Positions 1 to 31,004 of a stretch of DNA of 42,793 nt are shown here, one piece after another. The notes beneath the pieces are model-generated. The model was not told where the DNA came from and searched no databases. It worked only from the letters and a program-made list of their open reading frames with translations. The DNA comes from an uncultured Alphaproteobacteria bacterium (GTDB lineage: Bacteria; Pseudomonadota; Alphaproteobacteria; Rhodobacterales; Rhodobacteraceae). The translations under genes were made by a program, and so were the position numbers. The stretch covers positions 1 to 42,793 of the forward strand of contig CACAAX010000012.1 of the NCBI GenBank assembly GCA_902530595.1, in the 5' to 3' direction. Within the stretch, counting starts at the first letter, position 1. Every line of letters begins with the position of its first letter.

Positions 1-300
1 AATTTTTTTGCTATCTTTCAAGATCTCCTGTTTTAACATCATGCTGACTCTTTTAAGTTCTATCAAAGTCGTGCAAATTACTAGCTTATCTCCAAAATAT
101 GCAGGCAATAAGTAATCGGCTATAATATTTTTTACAACGAAAAATTTATTTTCTGCTAAAAGCATTGCTCTTTGATCAACATGCAAGGATTCAATGAACT
201 TACTTCTCGCACGTTCAGTGAATTTCAAGTAATTGGCATGATACACTCTCCCACCCATATCTGTATCCTCGTAGAAAACTTCGCAATTATACTGAAACAT
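1..300 (-). CDS. ybgC: YbgC-type acyl-CoA thioesterase, 3' end cut by the window
   Basis: This is the first 100 codons of a hotdog-fold thioesterase of the Tol-Pal-associated YbgC family, which hydrolyses acyl-CoA in the cytoplasm. I read it directly from the reverse strand. It starts at an ATG at 298-300 with a GGAAG Shine-Dalgarno just upstream. The family signature YEDTDMGGRVYHANY lies at about residues 10-24 and contains the catalytic Asp of the family (D14); FTERAR follows at once. The usual length is 130-150 residues, so roughly the last third lies left of position 1. It sits 24 bases after the ruvB stop on the same strand. In related genomes ybgC is followed by tolQ on the same strand, but here the rest of tolQ lies on the other side of the ruv genes, facing the other way. 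Confidence 0.9.
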   Translation of the reverse strand, partial: MFQYNCEVFYEDTDMGGRVYHANYLKFTERARSKFIESLHVDQRAMLLAENKFFVVKNIIADYLLPAYFGDKLVICTTLIELKRVSMMLKQEILKDSKKI

Positions 301-324
301 TTTTTCTTCCAATTTATTTTCTAC

Positions 325-1326
325 CTAATCACCTGGTTTTTCTAGTCCAAGATATTCCCATGTCTTTTTACCTAGGGCACGACCTCTCGGCGTCCTCTGT
401 ATCATACCCTCCTGAAGTAGATAGGGTTCTAAGACTTCTTCTATTGAGTCTTTGGACTCCGAAAGCGCAGCAGCCAGAGTATCTAAACCTACTGGTCCAC
501 CTCCATATTCGCGTGCTACTAAATTTAAATATTTACGATCACCTTCATCAAGTCCCACATGATCCACACCAAGCCTATTAAGTGCGCTGTCTACTAATAC
601 ATCAGTAATAACACCACTATTTTCAACAGTAGCAAAATCAATTACCCTCCTTAAAAGCCTCCCCGCAATTCTTGGAGTTCCTCTTGACCTTTTTGCAATT
701 TCAGCGGCGCTTAATTGATCGATTTTAAAATTCAAAAGATCGGCTGCTCGGCTTACAACCAAAATTAGGTCCCTAACCTCGTAAAAATTTAAGCGAACTG
801 GAATACCAAACCTATCTCTCATAGGCGTGGTCAGAAGACCTAGCCGAGTTGTTGATCCTACCAGAGTAAAAGGCTTTAATTCTATTCGTAAAGAGCGCGC
901 AGCAGAACCCTCTCCCACGATTAAATCGCAACTAAAGTCTTCCATAGCTGGATATAGAATTTCTTCAACGGCTGGTGACAATCTGTGGATCTCATCAATA
1001 AAGAGAACATCATTAGCCTCGAGACTAGTAAGAATTGCCGCTAAATCACCAGATTTTGTTAAAACGGGACCAGAAGTCATTTTAAAATTTACCCCTAATT
1101 CCCTCGCAATAATTTGTCCCAAAGTTGTTTTTCCCAAACCGGGAGGACCATGAAAAAGTACGTGGTCTAATGCTCTTTTTCGTATCTTGGATGCTTCCAA
1201 AAAAATCTTCAGGTTTTTTTTTAAATCGGCCTGCCCAATAAATTCGTCTATACTTTTAGGCCGAAGAGTATTTTCATAGTCTTCTTTTAACTCATCCGGC
1301 GACAAAATATTTTGTTCATCATTCAT
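325..1326 (-). CDS. ruvB: Holliday junction branch migration ATPase RuvB
   Basis: RuvB is the hexameric AAA+ motor that, with RuvA, drives branch migration of Holliday junctions in recombination and repair. At 333 residues it has the normal family length. Visible motifs are Walker A GPPGLGKT at 60-67, Walker B VLFIDEIH at about 107-114, the sensor and arginine-finger region GSTTRLGLL...MRDRFG, and a C-terminal winged-helix part that ends in [16 protein letters not shown]. It follows ruvA by 5 bases and is followed by ybgC, so ruvA-ruvB-ybgC form one transcription unit on the minus strand. The gene looks complete. Confidence 0.98.
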
Positions 1327-1331
1327 AGGGA

Positions 1332-1970
1332 CTATCCTTTTGCAAGCGATCTGAGGGCTTTCTTTACCAACTGCGAAGCATCTATAAAATCATCTTCGAT
1401 TATAATTTTGTCTATCGTGCTCTGAGCCTCCGCTGTTTTAAAACCTAAGTTCTGCAAAGCAGATAATGCATCTTGCTGAACCTCCTTTCTCTTAATAATG
1501 TTGATCGTCTGCTCATTATTATCGTCTTTTATCTCTTTGATTTCTTCATCCTCTAAAACTATTAAATCTTTTCTACCACTTAACTCTACAACTAGTCTCT
1601 GAGCCATTCGAGATCCGATTCCGGAAACAGAAGAAAAGGCCAGTTCATTTTTCATTCTTAAGGCATGCAAAAGTTCTTTAGTATCCAGTGTATTTAAAAT
1701 AGTGAGGGCAACCTTCGCTCCGATGCCCTGAACTGATCGTAAGATATTAAACCAATCTTTTTCTATCTGAGTTATAAAGCCTACCAATTGTAATAAGTCC
1801 TCTTTCACTAGTAACTCAGAGTAAAGCGATATCTCTCTCGATTGATTATCCAGATTTAGGGACCTTGCGGTTTTTTCAGTAACATAAACAACGTAACCAA
1901 TTCCATGAACATCAATGACAACGCTATCTCTTTTTTTCTCAATGAGCTGACCCTTTATTCTACCTATCAT
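1332..1970 (-). CDS. ruvA: Holliday junction DNA helicase subunit RuvA
   Basis: RuvA binds four-way DNA junctions as a tetramer and loads RuvB. The protein has 212 residues, close to the usual 190-210. It opens with [13 protein letters not shown], typical of the N-terminal OB-fold domain. The helix-hairpin-helix region follows ([12 protein letters not shown], then [18 protein letters not shown]). A charged, variable linker comes next, and the C-terminal RuvB-binding domain ends in [14 protein letters not shown]. It starts 6 bases after the stop of the ruvC fragment and ends 5 bases before ruvB, matching the usual ruvC-ruvA-ruvB order. Confidence 0.97.
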
Positions 1971-1976
1971 TTGAGA

Positions 1977-2144
1977 TCACATTGCTTTCTTTATTGCTCT
2001 ATTAAGATTAGCATTTAATTTCAAAGTATGCATATGGCATATAGCTATCGCAAGAGCATCTGCCTCATCGGACTGGCTAAAGCATACTTTTGGGAACTGT
2101 AACAAAGCCATTCTTTCAACCTCTTCTTTGGTCTTGGGCAATCA
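1977..2144 (-). pseudogene. ruvC: RuvC resolvase, C-terminal fragment only
   Basis: Reading the minus strand upstream of ruvA gives about 50 in-frame codons with the C-terminal signature of the RuvC Holliday junction endonuclease: KEEVERMALL, then SDEADALAIAICHMH, ending in NRAIKKAM with a TGA stop at 1977-1979. EADALAIAICH matches the last catalytic acidic region (DxADALA-A-CH) of the family. The frame closes upstream at a stop at 2142-2144, and homology stops before that, at roughly 2130-2138. The first two thirds of RuvC (usual length 160-180) are missing. The fragment overlaps the start of the tolQ remnant on the other strand. I read this as a breakpoint, not a gene that decayed in place. 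Confidence 0.85.
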
Positions 2145-2725
2145 TTATTCAGAAAATTACAGACTATAGAAAATCAAAAAGAGAAAAGAAAACTTTTTTA
2201 GATGAGTTCTGGTCTGGGGGCTCTTTAGAAGAATTATATAACGAAAAAAGAGACAACCCCAAAGGTGCTTGTGAACAAATATTTTGTGCTGCAATGGATG
2301 AATGGCAAAGATCCTCTGACGGTGATGGAAAACTAATTGACGGAGTGCAGTCTAGGTTAGAGAGAGCAATGTATGTGGTTTTAGATCGTTGGAACGAGAA
2401 ACTAAGCTCTGGATTATATTTTCTTGCTACAGTTGGGTCAGTTGCACCCTTTGTGGGCTTATTTGGTACTGTGTGGGGTATCAAAAATGCTTTTCAAGAA
2501 ATTGCAATTCAAGAAAGTAGTAATTTAGCGGTAGTAGCTCCTGGTATTGCTGAAGCCCTCTTGGCTACTGCTTTAGGGCTACTAGCGGCAATCCCCGCAG
2601 TTGTTTTCTATAATAAGCTATCCGGTGACTCTCAAAAAATTATAAATGGGGTAGAAGAATTTTCAGAAGAATTCTCTGTTATAATTTCAAGGCACATCGA
2701 CATGAATAAAAATCATAAAGAGTAA
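2090..2725 (+). CDS. tolQ: TolQ proton-channel subunit, N-terminus replaced at a junction
   Basis: TolQ is the inner-membrane channel subunit of the Tol-Pal complex; with TolR it uses the proton motive force to drive outer-membrane constriction at division. From WSWAIII (2129 onward) the sequence is clearly TolQ: the linker FWSGGSLEELY, the second and third membrane helices (GLYFLATVGSVAPFVGLFGTVWG-like, and PGIAEALLATALGLLAAIPAVVFYNK-like). The first 30-40 residues of a normal TolQ, with most of the first membrane helix, are absent. The codons before about 2125 are the antisense of ruvC, so the TTG at 2090 is only a formal start. The gene runs straight into tolR with a 2-base gap. As written it would not encode a normal TolQ. 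Confidence 0.88.
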   Translation: MGTVTKPFFQPLLWSWAIIIQKITDYRKSKREKKTFLDEFWSGGSLEELYNEKRDNPKGACEQIFCAAMDEWQRSSDGDGKLIDGVQSRLERAMYVVLDRWNEKLSSGLYFLATVGSVAPFVGLFGTVWGIKNAFQEIAIQESSNLAVVAPGIAEALLATALGLLAAIPAVVFYNKLSGDSQKIINGVEEFSEEFSVIISRHIDMNKNHKE

Positions 2726-2727
2726 GT

Positions 2728-3174
2728 ATGCAAATTGGACCAAAGTCAGCAAGCCGCTCAAAAAAAAGGCAAAAATTTTCTAGCAGGAATTTTGTTCCAA
2801 TGTCAGAAATTAATGTGACACCTTTTGTTGATATAATGTTGGTGCTTTTGATTATATTTATGGTAGCAGCGCCTCTATTGAGCGTAGGCATAGAGGTTGA
2901 TTTGCCTAATACTCAAGCAAAACCAATAGAAACTGAAAAAGAAAGACCTCTTACTCTTACGCTGGATGGTGAAAGCAATCTGTTTATAAATGAAGTAAAA
3001 ATAGAGAAAAGCGAGCTCCGCTCTAAGCTTTTGGCGATTAAAAAAGAAAGAGAATCGAATGAGATTTATTTGAGAGCTAGTAAAGATATCGAGTATCAGA
3101 ATGTTGCAACCATTCTGGCTCTCGTAAGCAATATTGGGTATTCTCAGATATCATTAGTTACCGATGTAGAATAA
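2728..3174 (+). CDS. tolR: TolR/ExbD-family proton-channel protein
   Basis: TolR pairs with TolQ to form the proton-driven motor of the Tol-Pal system. The protein has 148 residues, the usual size. A short basic cytoplasmic tail is followed by one membrane helix with the family motif INVTPFVDIMLVLLIIFM at 28-45; D35 is the conserved membrane aspartate thought to carry protons. The periplasmic part (about 55-148) has the ExbD/TolR fold pattern with GIEVDLP and a C-terminal ISLVTD strand. It starts 2 bases after the tolQ stop and is followed by tolA after 17 bases. It is intact even though tolQ is broken. Confidence 0.96.
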   Translation: MQIGPKSASRSKKRQKFSSRNFVPMSEINVTPFVDIMLVLLIIFMVAAPLLSVGIEVDLPNTQAKPIETEKERPLTLTLDGESNLFINEVKIEKSELRSKLLAIKKERESNEIYLRASKDIEYQNVATILALVSNIGYSQISLVTDVE

Positions 3175-3191: not shown

Positions 3192-4190
3192 ATGAGACAA
3201 GGTCTTTATACTTCTGGATTTTTTCATATATTTTGGGGTTTTTTATTGATAGTTAATTTCCAAGTATTAGAAGAAAATCCAAATGAAGTGTTAAATAAAG
3301 TAAGTGTGAAATTATTATCTGAGCAAGAGCTTAATGAACTTACTGCGTCGGATAAAACAAGTGCTCTCAAAGTTGAAAACTTTCAGCCAATGACGATTGC
3401 TGACTCCAACAATAATCCAAAAAAAATATCTATTCCTCCCAAGGAAAAAGTTGGCAATGAAATAAAAGGTGTAACTGAGCCGAATATTATTGAAATTAAA
3501 AAGCGTAAAACAAATGATGAAATCATCACTAATCGTGCTAAAAGAGGTGAGAATGATGTTGAAGAGCAGGTTAAAGAAAGAGTAAGCAGGTCTATTCAAA
3601 AGAAAGACTCTTCAGAAAAACAAAATAATGATCAAGCAAAACAAAAGAATACTAGTTCACATATTTCGTCAGAAGGTAAAAATGTGGAGATTATTTCTGG
3701 TGCCTTAAATATTGCAAAATTACCCCCATCGAGACCGACATTTGTTGAGTTAAGCGATCAAGATGACACTAATGAACCTACATTACAAAAAAACAGTAAT
3801 GAAGTGTATGATAACTTAATCGAACAAGTGGTTAATAATAAGAAAAACGAAAAAGTTTTAGAAACTTCAATCCAAAGATTGACTAAGGCCAGGATTCTTC
3901 AGAAGTTAAACGAGAATTGGAATGTTGTTTCGATAAATAGACTAGCAAATTATGAAAAGTATGTAATTATTTTGGAGTTAAAGATTGATAAGAATGGATA
4001 TATAAGCGGTCCAATAAAGCTGGTTTATCCACAAAAAGCCTCTGGAAACTTTCTTATAGCGAAAAGATCTGCTATCAAAGCGGTTTTAGAGTCGTCTCCT
4101 TTTCCAGTTCCAAAGGAAAGCTTTCCTAGAGGTTTGGTCTTAAGAGTAGTATTTGATCCTGAAACAAATGTGGGTGTAAATAATGGTTAG
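3192..4190 (+). CDS. tolA: TolA-like periplasm-spanning protein
   Basis: TolA links the TolQR motor to Pal and TolB across the periplasm. The call rests on position between tolR and tolB and on architecture, since sequence conservation is low. There is one N-terminal membrane helix (about residues 8-24). A long polar segment rich in Lys, Glu, Asn and Ser follows (about 40-210). The C-terminal TolA/TonB-like domain (about 230-332) contains LNENWNV and a VVFDPE-type ending. The domain includes the pattern [14 protein letters not shown] typical of TolA/TonB C-termini. At 332 residues it has the normal size. Its stop overlaps the tolB start by 8 bases, which suggests translational coupling. Confidence 0.85.
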
Positions 4191-5532
4191 ACATAGTGTT
4201 TTAAAATTCCTAAAGATTTTTTCTTTTACAAGCATCTTATTCATAAACTCTAGCTTTGTAGCCGCTCAGAAAAATGACGCTCCACAGCTTGACATGACAG
4301 TAAATAGGGGGGTAATAAAACCTTTATCACTGGCCGTTCCAAGCTTTATTAAAGAAAGCGGTGCAAACTCGATTATTAGCAGAGAACTAGCAAAAGTAAT
4401 CTCAAATAATCTTGATAGCACCGGATTATTTAAATCTATTCCACAGTCTGCTTACGTCAGTATGCCATTGAGTTTCAATACACCAGTGCAGTTTAGTGAC
4501 TGGTCGATAATTAATGCTGATGTTTTGGTCATGGGATCTGTTGGTTTAAAGCCTGATGGTCGCTTGGAAGTTAAATTTAGATTGTGGGATGTATCTCAGC
4601 AAAAAGAAATTGGAAAAGGAAAGCAGTACTTCACAAATTCCGAGAGCTGGAGAAGAATTTCGCATAAAATCTCTGATACTATATATACTCGAGTTACAGG
4701 TGAGGGGGCATACTTTGATAGCAGAGTTGTTTTTGTTTCTGAGACTGGACCAAAGGATAATAGAACAAAGAGGCTTGCTATTATGGATCAAGATGGAGCA
4801 AATTTTAGGTTGTTAAAGCACCCACCTTCTCTAGTAATTGCACCACGCTTTTCTCCAACCACGAATAAAATTATTTTTACTGGATATGAAACAGGTAAGC
4901 CAAGGGTTTATTTGATGGACCTTAGCTCGGAAGAGATAACTTCTCTCCCTGAATTAAAGGGAATGAGTTTTGCTCCAAGATTCTCTGCGGATGGTAGTCA
5001 AATAGTATTATCAATGACTGAAAATGGTAATACCGATATTTTTATAAATACTTTGTCTACGGGAGCGAAAAGAAGACTAACAACAAACAATGCGATTGAT
5101 ACCGCACCAAGCTTTTCACCAGACGGGAAAAGTATTGTGTTTGAAAGTGATAGAGGAGGTGGCCAACAACTTTATATTATTTCTAACCAAGGAGGAGATG
5201 CAAAAAGGATTAGTTTTGGCAAAGGTAGATATGCTACTCCCGTTTGGTCACCAAGAGGTGACCTGATTGCATTTACAAAGATTAAAGAAGGGAAATTTCA
5301 TATTGGAGTGATGCGGGTTGATGGAACAAAGGAAAGGTTGCTGACTACGTCATTTCTCGATGAAGGCCCTGCTTGGGCTCCAAATGGCCGAGTTTTAATG
5401 TTTTTCAGGGAAACGCCAGGTAAGGCCGGAGCACCTTCTATTTACTCGATTGACATATCCGGACGTAATCTTAGAAAAATAAAAACTTCTTCCTTCGCTT
5501 CGGACCCCAATTGGTCTCCAATTTTAAATTAA
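4183..5532 (+). CDS. tolB: Tol-Pal system periplasmic propeller protein TolB
   Basis: TolB is the periplasmic partner of Pal and TolA. A Sec signal peptide is visible (basic start, hydrophobic run, cleavage likely after SSFVAA at about 27). The N-terminal domain spans about 30-165. A six-bladed beta-propeller made of WD40-like TolB repeats follows, with recurrent [48 protein letters not shown] and [12 protein letters not shown] blades ending at SDPNWSP. At 449 residues it is slightly longer than the E. coli protein but normal for Alphaproteobacteria. The ATG lies inside the last codons of tolA. Confidence 0.97.
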
Positions 5533-26423: not shown

Positions 26424-26960
26424 ATGTTTTCAAATTTACGAAGAGTTGTTACTGGAAATGATGCAAGTGGAAAATCGTTGATAACTTTTGACGGGCCACC
26501 CCCTGCGTCGTATGAAATGGGTGCAGGCGGACTCTATGAATTATGGAACTCTGCAGGAAATGTCCTAAATTCGCGGGATAAACTTGATCGTGGGCTAGGA
26601 AAAGTAGTTCTGGGTCCACAATCTGGGGGAGTAAAGTTTCGGTATTTCGCAATAGCGCCAACTCCAGAGGGGATCTCGAATGATGAGCTAAATAAAATGT
26701 TTGCTAAAGTATTTGGAGACATTAATGCAGCCGATGACCGTGTGGATGTAACTCGACATCCTGGAATGCATAAAACTAAAACTTTGGACTATATAATCCT
26801 CCTAAAAGGAACTGCTAAATTAATTTTAGATAATGATGACGCTGATCTTAAGCCCTTTGATGTTGTAGTACAGAGGTCTACTAACCATGCTTGGGTATGC
26901 ACCAGTCAGGACCCTGCTTTATTTATAGCTGTACTTATAGCAACTGAAGTGGATATCTAA
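26424..26960 (+). CDS. Cupin-domain protein of unknown substrate
   Basis: A 178-residue protein with a single C-terminal cupin fold: KTLDYIILLKGTAKLILDN (about 122-140) and DVVVQRSTNHAWVCTSQDPALFIAVLI (about 147-173). The metal motifs are partial: the second cupin motif keeps one His (NHAW) and the first has no clear H-x-H. The N-terminal half (RRVVTGNDASGKSL and ELWN) resembles proteins described as cupin domain-containing regulators or isomerases of small aromatic or dicarboxylic acids. I chose the ATG at 26424 because GAAGGA sits 7 bases before it. The TRAP genes follow 105 bases later. It may be part of the same substrate module. Confidence 0.75.
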   Translation: MFSNLRRVVTGNDASGKSLITFDGPPPASYEMGAGGLYELWNSAGNVLNSRDKLDRGLGKVVLGPQSGGVKFRYFAIAPTPEGISNDELNKMFAKVFGDINAADDRVDVTRHPGMHKTKTLDYIILLKGTAKLILDNDDADLKPFDVVVQRSTNHAWVCTSQDPALFIAVLIATEVDI

Positions 26961-27050
26961 ATCGCCCTTCCTTTTGGTTATATTTAAATGAAGATTTGGT
27001 TTTACATTGTGTCAATTTGTCGCTAACTTTTTTAATATAAGAACAAATAT

Positions 27051-27060
27051 AAAAGGGGGG
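27051..27060 (+). promoter_or_regulatory. Strong ribosome binding site of dctP
   Basis: AAAAGGGGGG ends 5 bases before the ATG of the TRAP binding-protein gene. A G-rich Shine-Dalgarno of this strength is rare in this AT-rich window and fits the high expression expected for a periplasmic binding protein. The 105-base gap before dctP must hold its promoter; I see AT-rich stretches such as TAATAT at 27033-27038 but no convincing -35 box. Confidence 0.55.
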
Positions 27061-27065
27061 AAACG

Positions 27066-28127
27066 ATGAAAAAACTATTTTTTGGTATTTTTTCTGTGTT
27101 AATCATTTCTATTACTTCACAACTAGCGGTAGCTAAAGAGATAAGTGTTACTTATGTTGCTGGACATCCACCGGTATTCAGATGGGTGAAACACGTCAAT
27201 CAAACATTTATTCCAGCAGTAAACAAATCTTTGGAAGGTAGTGGTCATTCTATAAAATGGAGTGAACAATATGGGGGATCCTTGGCAAAAGTTGGAGATG
27301 AGCTTGAAGCGGTTGAAGAGGGGTTAGCTGAAATAGGAGGAATATCAAGTTTATTTGACCCTGCTAAACTAGCGGTGCAAAACGTCACTTATTATTCTCC
27401 CTTTGTTTCAAGTAACGTCGACAAAGTATCTGAGTTAATGACAAGAATGCAGTTCGAGAACAAAGATATGAAGGCAGCTTGGGAAGCGAATGGATTAATT
27501 CAGCTAGGTGGTTCCATTGCAATTGATGATTACTTACTAATGACAACCTTCCCAGTCAATTCGATTGCCGATTTAAAAGGAAGAAAAATTGGAGCTCCTG
27601 GTCCTGCTGTTACTTGGTTGAAGGGAACAGGAGCAGTCGGAGTATCCGGTAATCTGACCACTTACAACAATGAAATAAAAGCAGGGGTATATGACGGAGT
27701 AATAGTTTTTGCTTCTGCAGCATTGCCTGGCAAACTTCATGAGGTGGCCCCATATATAACAAAAGTTGGGTTCGGAGCTCAATATGCTGGCTCAATTGCG
27801 GCTAATAAAGATTGGTTTGAATCTCAACCCGATGTTGTGCAGAAGGCTCTAATAGACGCTGGTGAAACATACCGAGTTGCATATCAAAAAGATCTAGGTG
27901 CATCAGTTGCTAAATTTCTGTCTATAATGGAATCTCAAGGAGCAAAGGTTTCTGAAGCTAGTCCCGAGATGAGGAAAAAATGGGCTGCTGGAATGGATAA
28001 TGTTGCTATGGAGTGGGCTAAAAAACTAGACTCTTCTGGTGTGAATGGAACTGCAGTTCTAAAAGCCTATATGGACACGATGAGAGATGCAGGAGCAAAG
28101 CCGGTTAGAAACTGGGATAAAGAGTAA
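27066..28127 (+). CDS. dctP: TRAP transporter periplasmic binding protein (DctP family)
   Basis: The binding protein of a tripartite ATP-independent periplasmic transporter. A Sec signal peptide runs to about residue 23 (cleavage after AVA, before KEISVTYVAGHPP). The mature part has the DctP pattern: EQYGGSLAKVGDELEAVEEGLAEIG, DLKGRKIGAPGPAVTWLKGTGAVGV, YDGVIVFASAALPGKLHEVAPYIT. The 353-residue length is normal. No conserved Arg position can be used to assign a substrate by eye, so 'C4-dicarboxylate' is only the family name. A strong ribosome binding site precedes it and a hairpin follows it before dctQ. The next genes suggest a cyclic or amide-containing ligand. Confidence 0.93.
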   Translation: MKKLFFGIFSVLIISITSQLAVAKEISVTYVAGHPPVFRWVKHVNQTFIPAVNKSLEGSGHSIKWSEQYGGSLAKVGDELEAVEEGLAEIGGISSLFDPAKLAVQNVTYYSPFVSSNVDKVSELMTRMQFENKDMKAAWEANGLIQLGGSIAIDDYLLMTTFPVNSIADLKGRKIGAPGPAVTWLKGTGAVGVSGNLTTYNNEIKAGVYDGVIVFASAALPGKLHEVAPYITKVGFGAQYAGSIAANKDWFESQPDVVQKALIDAGETYRVAYQKDLGASVAKFLSIMESQGAKVSEASPEMRKKWAAGMDNVAMEWAKKLDSSGVNGTAVLKAYMDTMRDAGAKPVRNWDKE

Positions 28128-28151
28128 AGACAAGTATCTTTTGTATATTTG

Positions 28152-28181
28152 AGGTGCCTTTTGAATAAGGCACCTTACTTT
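28152..28181 (+). terminator. Hairpin between dctP and dctQ, likely attenuating terminator
   Basis: A perfect 9-base stem, AGGTGCCTT (28152-28160) and AAGGCACCT (28167-28175), with a 6-base loop, is followed by TACTTTTTTT. This is a classic intrinsic terminator shape. Placed between the binding-protein gene and the two membrane genes, it should let most transcripts stop after dctP, giving more binding protein than permease. Partial read-through would supply dctQ and dctM. Confidence 0.75.
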
Positions 28182-28208
28182 TTTTAAATTTTATTTCTTC
28201 ATATACAG

Positions 28209-28856
28209 ATGGGTTTAACAAAGCTTTTATTTTCAAAAACAGAACTGTTCTTCAATTTTATTACGCAGAGTTTTAATATAATCGGGACGATATTAATCAT
28301 TTTTATAATGATAATAGTCAATGCTGATGTAATAGGTAGAGAATTGTTTCTAATGCCTATTGCGGGCGTCCCAATGATGGTATCAATGTCTATTGTTGCA
28401 ATAGTTTTTTTGCAAACGCCTCAAACATTTAATCGAGGCAGACTTACTCAAAATGTATCTATATTAAATGCCATTGGACGAAGAATGCCTTTAGTAAAAT
28501 TGCTATTAGATATCACATATTCTATAGCAGCTTTTTTCTTAATTTTACAGATATTCAAGTCGACTTATCCTTTATTTATAAAATCTTGGGTAAGAAATAC
28601 GTATGAGGGAACCATAGGAGATTTTACAGCACCAATCTGGCCCATAAAACTTGTCATCCTTTTGGGGTGTTTTTTACTGATGGTGCAAATCATGTTATTT
28701 GGTATTAGGCAAGTGATAAAATATTATGATCCAACACATCAAGAAAATGAATCAGAAAAGATTAATGCAGAGGATATGGCTCTAAGGTTAGTTGCACAAA
28801 ATACGAAAAAGATAATCACGGGAACTGAGGAAAAAGAACCCGCAGAGAGGAACTAA
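28209..28856 (+). CDS. dctQ: TRAP transporter small permease (DctQ family)
   Basis: The small membrane subunit of the TRAP transporter, 215 residues with four hydrophobic segments (about 22-42, 58-80, 100-122, 148-170). The motif VNADVIGRELF (about 38-48) matches the DctQ helix 1-2 region, where NVxxRYxF is common. The C-terminal 40 residues form a charged cytoplasmic tail. It lies 81 bases after dctP, with the terminator-like hairpin between, and 48 bases before dctM. Confidence 0.9.
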   Translation: MGLTKLLFSKTELFFNFITQSFNIIGTILIIFIMIIVNADVIGRELFLMPIAGVPMMVSMSIVAIVFLQTPQTFNRGRLTQNVSILNAIGRRMPLVKLLLDITYSIAAFFLILQIFKSTYPLFIKSWVRNTYEGTIGDFTAPIWPIKLVILLGCFLLMVQIMLFGIRQVIKYYDPTHQENESEKINAEDMALRLVAQNTKKIITGTEEKEPAERN

Positions 28857-28904
28857 ATTGATTGTTTTTTCCTTCAGAGATTTCTTTATAAAGAAGCGTT
28901 GCTA

Positions 28905-30218
28905 ATGACCCCTTTTGACATTGGACTATACTCACTGGTTGCAATTGTAATACTTGTTTATATGGGCTTTTGGGTTCCCTTTGCTTTGATGCTTTCTTCC
29001 TATATAGGAGTTTGGTTAATAAAAGACTCCTCTATTTTAGCAGGAAAATTGCTAGCACTGGCAGCATCTGAAGCCATTTCAAGCTATTTTTTTGGCGTAG
29101 TGCCATTGTTCGTATTCATGGGAAATGTTGTTTCAGCTACAGGGATGGGAGAAGATGCCTATGACGTTGCTAATCAAGCATTTAGAAAAATCAAAGGTGG
29201 TTTGGCTATCGGAACAGTTGGAGCCAACGCAGTATTTGCGGCTGTAACGGGAATATCAATAGCATCAGCTGCAGTATTTACTAAAATTGCGGTTCCCCAT
29301 ATGGTCAAGTTTGGTTATTCACCGAGGTTTTCGGTAGGAGTGGTTGCAGGTTCTTCAGTTCTTGGAATGCTTATTCCTCCAAGCTTGTTGTTAATTTTAT
29401 ATGGAATTTTAACGGAACAATCAATTGGGGATTTATTTGTTGCTGCAATTATTCCAGGGATCTTGTTAGCAATAGTTTTTGGCTTTGGAATTTTTATTCT
29501 ATGTATTTTTTGGAAAAAATTTGTATTTTCAGAAGAAGTTCAAACTTTTGGTGATATTGAATTAATGCCATTGAAAGATTTTTGCTTAAAATGTTTGCCT
29601 TTAATTTTTTTAATTTCCATAGTTTTAGGGGGTATTTACGGAGGGATTTTTACTCCGATAGAAGCGGGTGCGATCGGTAGTCTTGGAGCAGTAATAATAG
29701 GTATTCTGAAAAGACGGCTCTCATTGAAAGTTCTTTGGGAGGTGCTCGTCGAAACTGGCTATATAACGGCTACAATATCTTTCATTATCATAGCGGCACA
29801 GATGTATGCCAGAATGCTAGCTCTTTCTGGAATGCCAGCAGAGTTTGGTTCGTTTGTGGTTGGTTCAGACCTAAGCATAATGGGTATAATAATTCTTTAC
29901 ATAATACTCATTATACTGATGGGAACGATATTAGATAGTGGATCAATAATGTTGATACTAGTGCCTTTAATGTATCCTATATTGGTCTCTCTGAATATTG
30001 ATTTGATTTGGTTTGGAATAGTCACCGTTATTGCCGTTGAGGTAGGGCTCCTTACTCCTCCTTTAGGCATATCTATATTTGTTATTAAGTCTTCTCTAGA
30101 TAATGATAAAATATCGTTGGGAGACATATTTGCGGGTGCAGCACCATTTGCTTTAATGATGGTTGCAGTATTGTTACTTGTGATTGCGTTCCCAATTTTG
30201 ACAACAATTCTTTTATAA
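28905..30218 (+). CDS. dctM: TRAP transporter large permease (DctM family)
   Basis: The large membrane subunit that moves the substrate with sodium ions. The protein has 437 residues with 11-12 membrane helices. Family patterns include PLFVFMGNVV, the GANAVFAAVTGISIASAAVFT segment, VGVVAGSSVLGMLIPPSLLLILYG and TEQSIGDLFVAAIIPG, then ILDSGSIMLILVPLMYPI and VEVGLLTPPLGISIFVIKS. I use the ATG at 28905, preceded by AAGAAG; a TTG lies two codons earlier. The cyclase gene follows after 9 bases with AGAGGA before its ATG, so they form one operon. Confidence 0.94.
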   Translation: MTPFDIGLYSLVAIVILVYMGFWVPFALMLSSYIGVWLIKDSSILAGKLLALAASEAISSYFFGVVPLFVFMGNVVSATGMGEDAYDVANQAFRKIKGGLAIGTVGANAVFAAVTGISIASAAVFTKIAVPHMVKFGYSPRFSVGVVAGSSVLGMLIPPSLLLILYGILTEQSIGDLFVAAIIPGILLAIVFGFGIFILCIFWKKFVFSEEVQTFGDIELMPLKDFCLKCLPLIFLISIVLGGIYGGIFTPIEAGAIGSLGAVIIGILKRRLSLKVLWEVLVETGYITATISFIIIAAQMYARMLALSGMPAEFGSFVVGSDLSIMGIIILYIILIILMGTILDSGSIMLILVPLMYPILVSLNIDLIWFGIVTVIAVEVGLLTPPLGISIFVIKSSLDNDKISLGDIFAGAAPFALMMVAVLLLVIAFPILTTILL

Positions 30219-30227
30219 GAGGAAAAA

Positions 30228-31004
30228 ATGCCAAGAAAATTTATTGATCTTTCGGTAGCCTTAGAAACGGGTATTGTTTCAGATCCCCCTATGGCTCTTC
30301 CCGAAATAGAGTATGTAGATCATGCTATGTCAGCAGATCAAATCTGTTCCTTTTTTCCAGGACTCGACAAAAAAGATTTGCCCGCTGAAGAAGGTTGGGC
30401 CGTGGAAAATCTGAAAATAAGTACTCATAACGGTACGCATTTAGATGCTCCTTATCATTACCATTCTACAATGGATGGTGGAAAACGAGCCATTACAATT
30501 GACGAGGTTCCTTTGGATTGGTGCTTTAATGATGGTGTAAAATTAGACTTCAGGCATTTTGAGGACGGTTATGTGGTTACTCCTAACGACATAGATGCTG
30601 AATTAGATAGAATAGGTTATCAAATTAAACCCTTTGATATAGTCTTGGTCAACACTTCAGCTGGGGAGAGATATGGTTACGATGATTATTTACTCAAAGG
30701 CTGCGGTATAGGTCGAGAAGCAACGCTTCATCTAACTAGTAAGGGAGTTAAAGTTACTGGAACGGATGCATGGAGTTGGGATGCGCCATTTTCTCATACA
30801 GCAAAAAGATATGCTGAGAGTAAGGATCCTTCTATAATTTGGGAGGGACATAGAGCTGGTATGGAAAGAGCATATTGTCATATTGAAAAACTGAGCTCAT
30901 TAGAAAAACTACCTGACTTTGGTTTTTTGGTTTCTTGCTTTCCCTTTAAAATAAAGAAAGCATCAGCTGGCTTCATTAGAGCAGTAGCAATCCTGGAAGA
31001 ATAA
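30228..31004 (+). CDS. Cyclase-family metal hydrolase (kynurenine formamidase/isatin hydrolase fold)
   Basis: The 258-residue protein belongs to the cyclase family (kynurenine formamidase, isatin hydrolase). The metal-binding motif H-x-G-T-H-x-D-x-P-x-H is complete at 67-77 (HNGTHLDAPYH). The domain also shows FIDLSVALE at the start and LVNTSAGERYGYDDYL. Members hydrolyse cyclic or formylated amides such as isatin or N-formylkynurenine. It sits 9 bases after dctM, so the transporter probably brings in its substrate or a precursor. The exact substrate cannot be told. An OsmC gene follows after 15 bases. Confidence 0.88.
   Translation: MPRKFIDLSVALETGIVSDPPMALPEIEYVDHAMSADQICSFFPGLDKKDLPAEEGWAVENLKISTHNGTHLDAPYHYHSTMDGGKRAITIDEVPLDWCFNDGVKLDFRHFEDGYVVTPNDIDAELDRIGYQIKPFDIVLVNTSAGERYGYDDYLLKGCGIGREATLHLTSKGVKVTGTDAWSWDAPFSHTAKRYAESKDPSIIWEGHRAGMERAYCHIEKLSSLEKLPDFGFLVSCFPFKIKKASAGFIRAVAILEE

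Follow-up and report, generated by a model that had tools for sequence, protein, structure and literature searches.

Near one end of a contig from an uncultured member of the Rhodobacteraceae, the remnants of two genes, ruvC and tolQ, lie head to head, and the question raised by this locus is whether such an arrangement belongs to the organism or was made in the laboratory. The window, i.e., the whole stretch of 42,793 nt analysed here, is the entire contig 12 (G000:C12:1-42793) of an assembly of 1,363,954 bases in 51 contigs, 62.48% complete.

The junction and its two truncated genes

In the window, a minus-strand arm (1-2133) with ybgC, ruvB, ruvA and the final 51 codons of ruvC is joined inversely to a plus-strand arm (2127 onward) with tolQ and tolR. 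The features are as follows:

1-312, minus strand: ybgC, truncated at the contig end so that 104 aa of the thioesterase remain (TIGR02799, 101.6 bits, E 3.5e-29)
325-1326, minus strand: ruvB, full frame, 333 aa (NF000868, 486.2 bits, above cutoff)
1332-1970, minus strand: ruvA, full frame, 212 aa (TIGR00084, 169.7 bits, above cutoff)
1977-2133, minus strand: ruvC, last 51 codons only (weak NCBIfam matches and congener frames)
2127-2133, no strand: the junction, a 7-nt exact word, TTTGGTC, common to both arms, with imperfect likeness back to 2120
2134-2725, plus strand: tolQ, lacking about 38 of its 236 codons at the start (TIGR02796, 240.3 bits, and congener frames)
2728-3174, plus strand: tolR, full frame, 148 aa, directly downstream of tolQ (Pfam ExbD/TolR, 94.7 bits, above cutoff)

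A sequence-only reading of this DNA had described head-to-head remnants of ruvC and tolQ, and this is borne out both by the profile matches and by BLASTN alignments with congeners. The score of ybgC is below the TIGR02799 cutoff of 141.35, as expected, because the gene is cut; tolR reached 123.2 bits with TIGR02801, just under the cutoff of 127.3. The minus-strand frame 1977-2141 corresponds to the RuvC C-terminus with weak NCBIfam matches (TIGR00228, E 0.0018; NF000711, E 0.0021), which are far below both cutoffs because the piece is short, and no match to this piece was obtained from Pfam at E 0.01. An alignment of 50 of its codons with the ends of RuvC frames from congeners agrees with the earlier estimate of about 50, and about 117 of 168 codons are absent, the 51/117 split being hand-counted on the frame of congener G010, from which the length of 168 was taken. 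The plus-strand frame 2090-2725 is TolQ and covers profile positions 25-216 of 216. Compared with congener frames it is kept from about residue 39; about 38 residues are absent, where a loss of 30-40 had been claimed, and with them most of the first membrane helix, as placed by eye. Further downstream, the frame 4183-5532 is presumably tolB-like.

Both stumps carry open frames. When the tolQ part was compared with 10 congeners, pN (0.009-0.031) was far below pS (0.143-0.667). For the ruvC part, pN (0-0.124) was below pS (0.070-0.628) in 10 of 10 comparisons; the contrast is weaker here and, with 150 nt and few sites, the test is a weak one. By this measure the stumps resemble pieces of functioning genes and show no sign of decay. 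The explanation that they are old, decaying pseudogenes was rejected, since pN is below pS in both pieces.

In the BLASTN alignments with congener stretches, the match of the ruvC arm extends to 2133 and that of the tolQ arm begins at 2127; the switch thus falls within the interval of about 2120-2140 where it had been placed from the letters. The short shared sequence expected there proved to be the 7-nt word TTTGGTC; if one gap is allowed, the likeness of the arms extends to 2120 and spans 14 window bases. Thirteen congeners were entered in the measurement of overlap and distance, of which two (G009 and G005) failed the arm-score filter. Among the 11 measured, the joined points are 2,327-2,382 nt apart, and the exact overlap anchored at 2133 is 7 nt in four, 3 nt in three and 0 in four, so that the 7-nt word rests on the letters of the window and on four relatives. 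Read from the strings, TTTGGT is still common to the arms, one base earlier, in three of the four congeners with zero overlap. Random joins with at least 7 shared bases occurred at a frequency of 0.0007-0.0008 (three operons, 200,000 random pairs per operon). No inverted repeat with an arm of at least 12 nt was found on the junction (2120-2133) in window 1-2800, the other end of the segment being outside the contig, and the only inverted pairing between the two break sites in congeners is the 7-nt word, with or without its gapped extension to 14 bases. An exact match of the junction 31-mer was absent from viral contigs, which says little.

Gene order among relatives

A search with the tolQ fragment covered 41 genomes and matched 33, including the window's own genome, where one match was found; 14 congener stretches formed the BLASTN comparison set. 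Both arms are present in 12 of these stretches and are colinear on one strand in all 12, which agrees with the earlier statement that Alphaproteobacteria carry the ruv genes, ybgC, tolQ and tolR in one line. The two other stretches contain the tolQ arm only and the ruvC arm only, respectively. In each of the 12 two-armed stretches, the left arm of the window matched over 1-2133 (from 20 or 82 in two of them) and the sequence from 2120-2127 onward matched on the opposite strand. The second segment is hence inverted relative to the congeners in 12 of 12 cases, and from these relatives we infer the true order in the cell itself. A full RuvC frame is present in 12 of the 14 stretches (cut by the contig end in G020, absent in G005); where the first Met is that of MQVIGID, the frame comprises 168 residues. 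TolQ, mostly beginning MEES/MEE, is likewise a full frame of 236-240 residues in 12 of 14 (cut by the contig end in G017, absent in G011).

The whole junction was found in one of 22 genus genomes, that of the window itself. Among the other 21, both halves occur apart in 11, the tolQ half occurs alone in one and there was no match in nine. The sequence-only reading had counted a recurrence of the junction in independent genomes against an artefact, and there was none in these 21, of which 11 are informative. Contigs end in or near ruvC-tolQ in four other congener assemblies as well, i.e., at L045 (G020), L047 (G005), L048 (G011) and L049 (G017); the ruvC-tolQ region often breaks in congener assemblies.

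In a single genome scan, ruvA, ruvB, ybgC, tolQ and tolR were all present in 47 of 80 named loci and were colinear on one strand in 45 of the 47. The two exceptions, L082 and L096, are both from Jannaschia and have, like the window, ruvA and ruvB on the strand opposite to tolQ. However, L082 has ruvA, ruvB, ybgC, tolQ and what was identified by eye as ruvC as full frames, with other sequence between them, and the break lies between genes, whereas in the window it lies inside two genes. Judged from its frames, L082 shows what a true rearrangement of the ruv/tol neighbourhood would look like. In another locus (L106), the best ybgC match, with 35% identity, is on the opposite strand. YbgC, TolB, TolQ and TolR are named among the STRING-linked partners of Ruv proteins in the available part of one report (PMC3403352).

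Recovery of the region and origin of the join

Neither the front of ruvC with 1.2 kb upstream nor the front of tolQ was found in the own assembly, where the searches gave only the contig end already known. An empty answer obtained without a control genome is weak, although a similar query did recover upstream flanks there. Full-length ruvC or tolQ copies elsewhere, which the sequence-only reading had also counted against itself, were absent from the own assembly, and this is unsurprising because the assembly is 62% complete. In the coordinates of congener G008, nothing was found in the own assembly for the 14.6 kb that precede the ruvC site, and contig C40 covers the 4.5 kb ahead of these. Since these 14.6 kb and both gene fronts are absent, the region appears to be poorly recovered.

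When the remainder of the window was aligned with one congener, its matched part contained no further inverted join, and none was clear in three 20-kb stretches of the own assembly against four congeners. The latter were partly unmatched or repeat-rich (e.g., C1:1-1919 had no match, and over its first 9.7 kb the C2 stretch gave scattered short matches in several orders). Wherever the matches were clear enough to judge, these searches were negative, and a high load of chimeras in the assembly is therefore not supported. The comparison with G008 also left about 3.8 kb of the window (26443-30232) unmatched, the flanks of which are only about 20 nt apart in that congener; the frames in it are, we presume, TRAP-type transporter-like (binding protein, small and large membrane subunits), and a cyclase-like frame is located beside them at 30228-31004.

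Of the 12 closest named relatives, 11 are AG- records (three titled MAG) and the other is MED-G56. We take AG- names to mark single cells, and the window's genome would accordingly be a single-cell assembly of SCGC type. The single-cell workflow presumably used for them, so far as its description is available, comprises MDA-based amplification, SPAdes, trimming of 100 bp at contig ends and a floor of 2,000 bp. In the parts available, 1.5 misassemblies per 100 kb are given for it (PMC9771814, PMC11247762); by our own arithmetic, about 0.6 would be expected in the window at this rate, and one is therefore unremarkable. The last-numbered contig (C51), with 2,135 nt the shortest seen, fits this floor.

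In the available portion of a study of 475 MDA chimeras, 85% were inverted, 83% of the inversions were under 10 kb, shared bases were present in 93.5% of the inverted joins under 10 kb and the frequency of chimeras was about one per 22 kb (Lasken and Stockwell 2007, PMC1855051). The window resembles these chimeras in that one locus is involved, the second segment is inverted, the joined segments are less than 10 kb apart and a short word is shared, its 7 nt being within the 2-21 nt expected of such joins. It differs in that the junction is known from the assembled contig and not from reads, and that the intermediate molecule was not observed. For phi29 chimeras in next-generation data, the part at hand of another, larger survey gives shared words mostly of 5-8 nt with a peak at 6 nt (PMC4595205), a range that includes the 7-nt word of the window. 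The distance of about 2.4 kb is well above the commonest 250-300 nt of those chimeras but within their range of 0 to >5,000. Taken together, inversion, a distance below 10 kb and a short shared word make up the signature of MDA chimeras in the portions of these two reports (PMC1855051, PMC4595205).

The explanation that we regard as very probable is an inverted MDA foldback chimera, which would have formed in vitro from the DNA of one cell and been carried into the contig. During amplification, a new strand ending in ruvC (or tolQ) may have been displaced by branch migration; its 3' end could then have annealed, by means of TTTGGTC, to a displaced strand nearby, at a distance of about 2.4 kb, and extension of the annealed end by phi29 polymerase would have produced a copy turned back on itself. 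In a poorly recovered region the assembler may have taken the chimeric path, leaving the true front ends of ruvC and tolQ absent. Several observations stand against the chimera. In congener coordinates, about 247 nt are left between the contig end and the tolQ site, whereas after a clean graph fork and the published trimming of 100 bp an end nearer to that site would be expected. The own assembly contains no competing correct copy of the junction region. The exact shared word is 3 nt or 0 in seven of the 11 congeners measured, and no other clear inverted join was seen in the parts of the assembly compared.

An assembly error in the strict sense, in which two unconnected ends were joined via the short shared word without any chimeric molecule, is very improbable. 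The smallest k-mer of the presumed assembler is 21, and the 7-nt exact word and the 14-base gapped likeness are both shorter than this, so that a real chimeric read was probably needed to bridge the junction. What speaks for such an error is the workflow's rate of 1.5 per 100 kb, which counts misassemblies of all kinds.

Still less probable is a live chromosomal inversion of about 2.4 kb, arising in a living marine cell by microhomology-mediated repair and disabling RuvC and the TolQ proton channel at once. The lack of a contradicting copy in the own assembly would agree with it, as would the rearrangement of ruv genes relative to tolQ within the family in the two Jannaschia loci. The reciprocal junction that a true inversion requires, between the tolQ front and the ruvC front, would fall just past the left end of the contig, at about 247 nt in congener coordinates. 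However, such an inversion would remove about 117 of the 168 RuvC residues and most of the first TolQ membrane helix, the stumps show no sign of decay, no inverted repeat of at least 12 nt pairs the two break sites, the junction is seen in 0 of the 11 other genus genomes with both halves, and the genes rearranged in L082 are all full frames. An artefact had been judged from the sequence to fit better than a live inversion, and the colinear congeners, the restriction of the junction to one of 22 genomes and the MDA-like geometry support that judgement.

A programmed, reversible switch of the tol operon, for which nothing speaks except that the segment is inverted relative to relatives, was rejected as extremely improbable, as the junction carries no repeat arm of at least 12 nt in window 1-2800, the 12 two-armed congener stretches have a single orientation and the breaks lie inside both genes.

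Reading the contig

The ruvC/tolQ junction is thus most likely a laboratory artefact, not biology, and it matters as quality control only. Comparison with congeners flags such a junction even without reads. Taken at face value, the contig would suggest the loss of ruvC and a truncated tolQ in the organism, and a false divergent arrangement of the ruv and tol genes would enter surveys of gene neighbourhoods.
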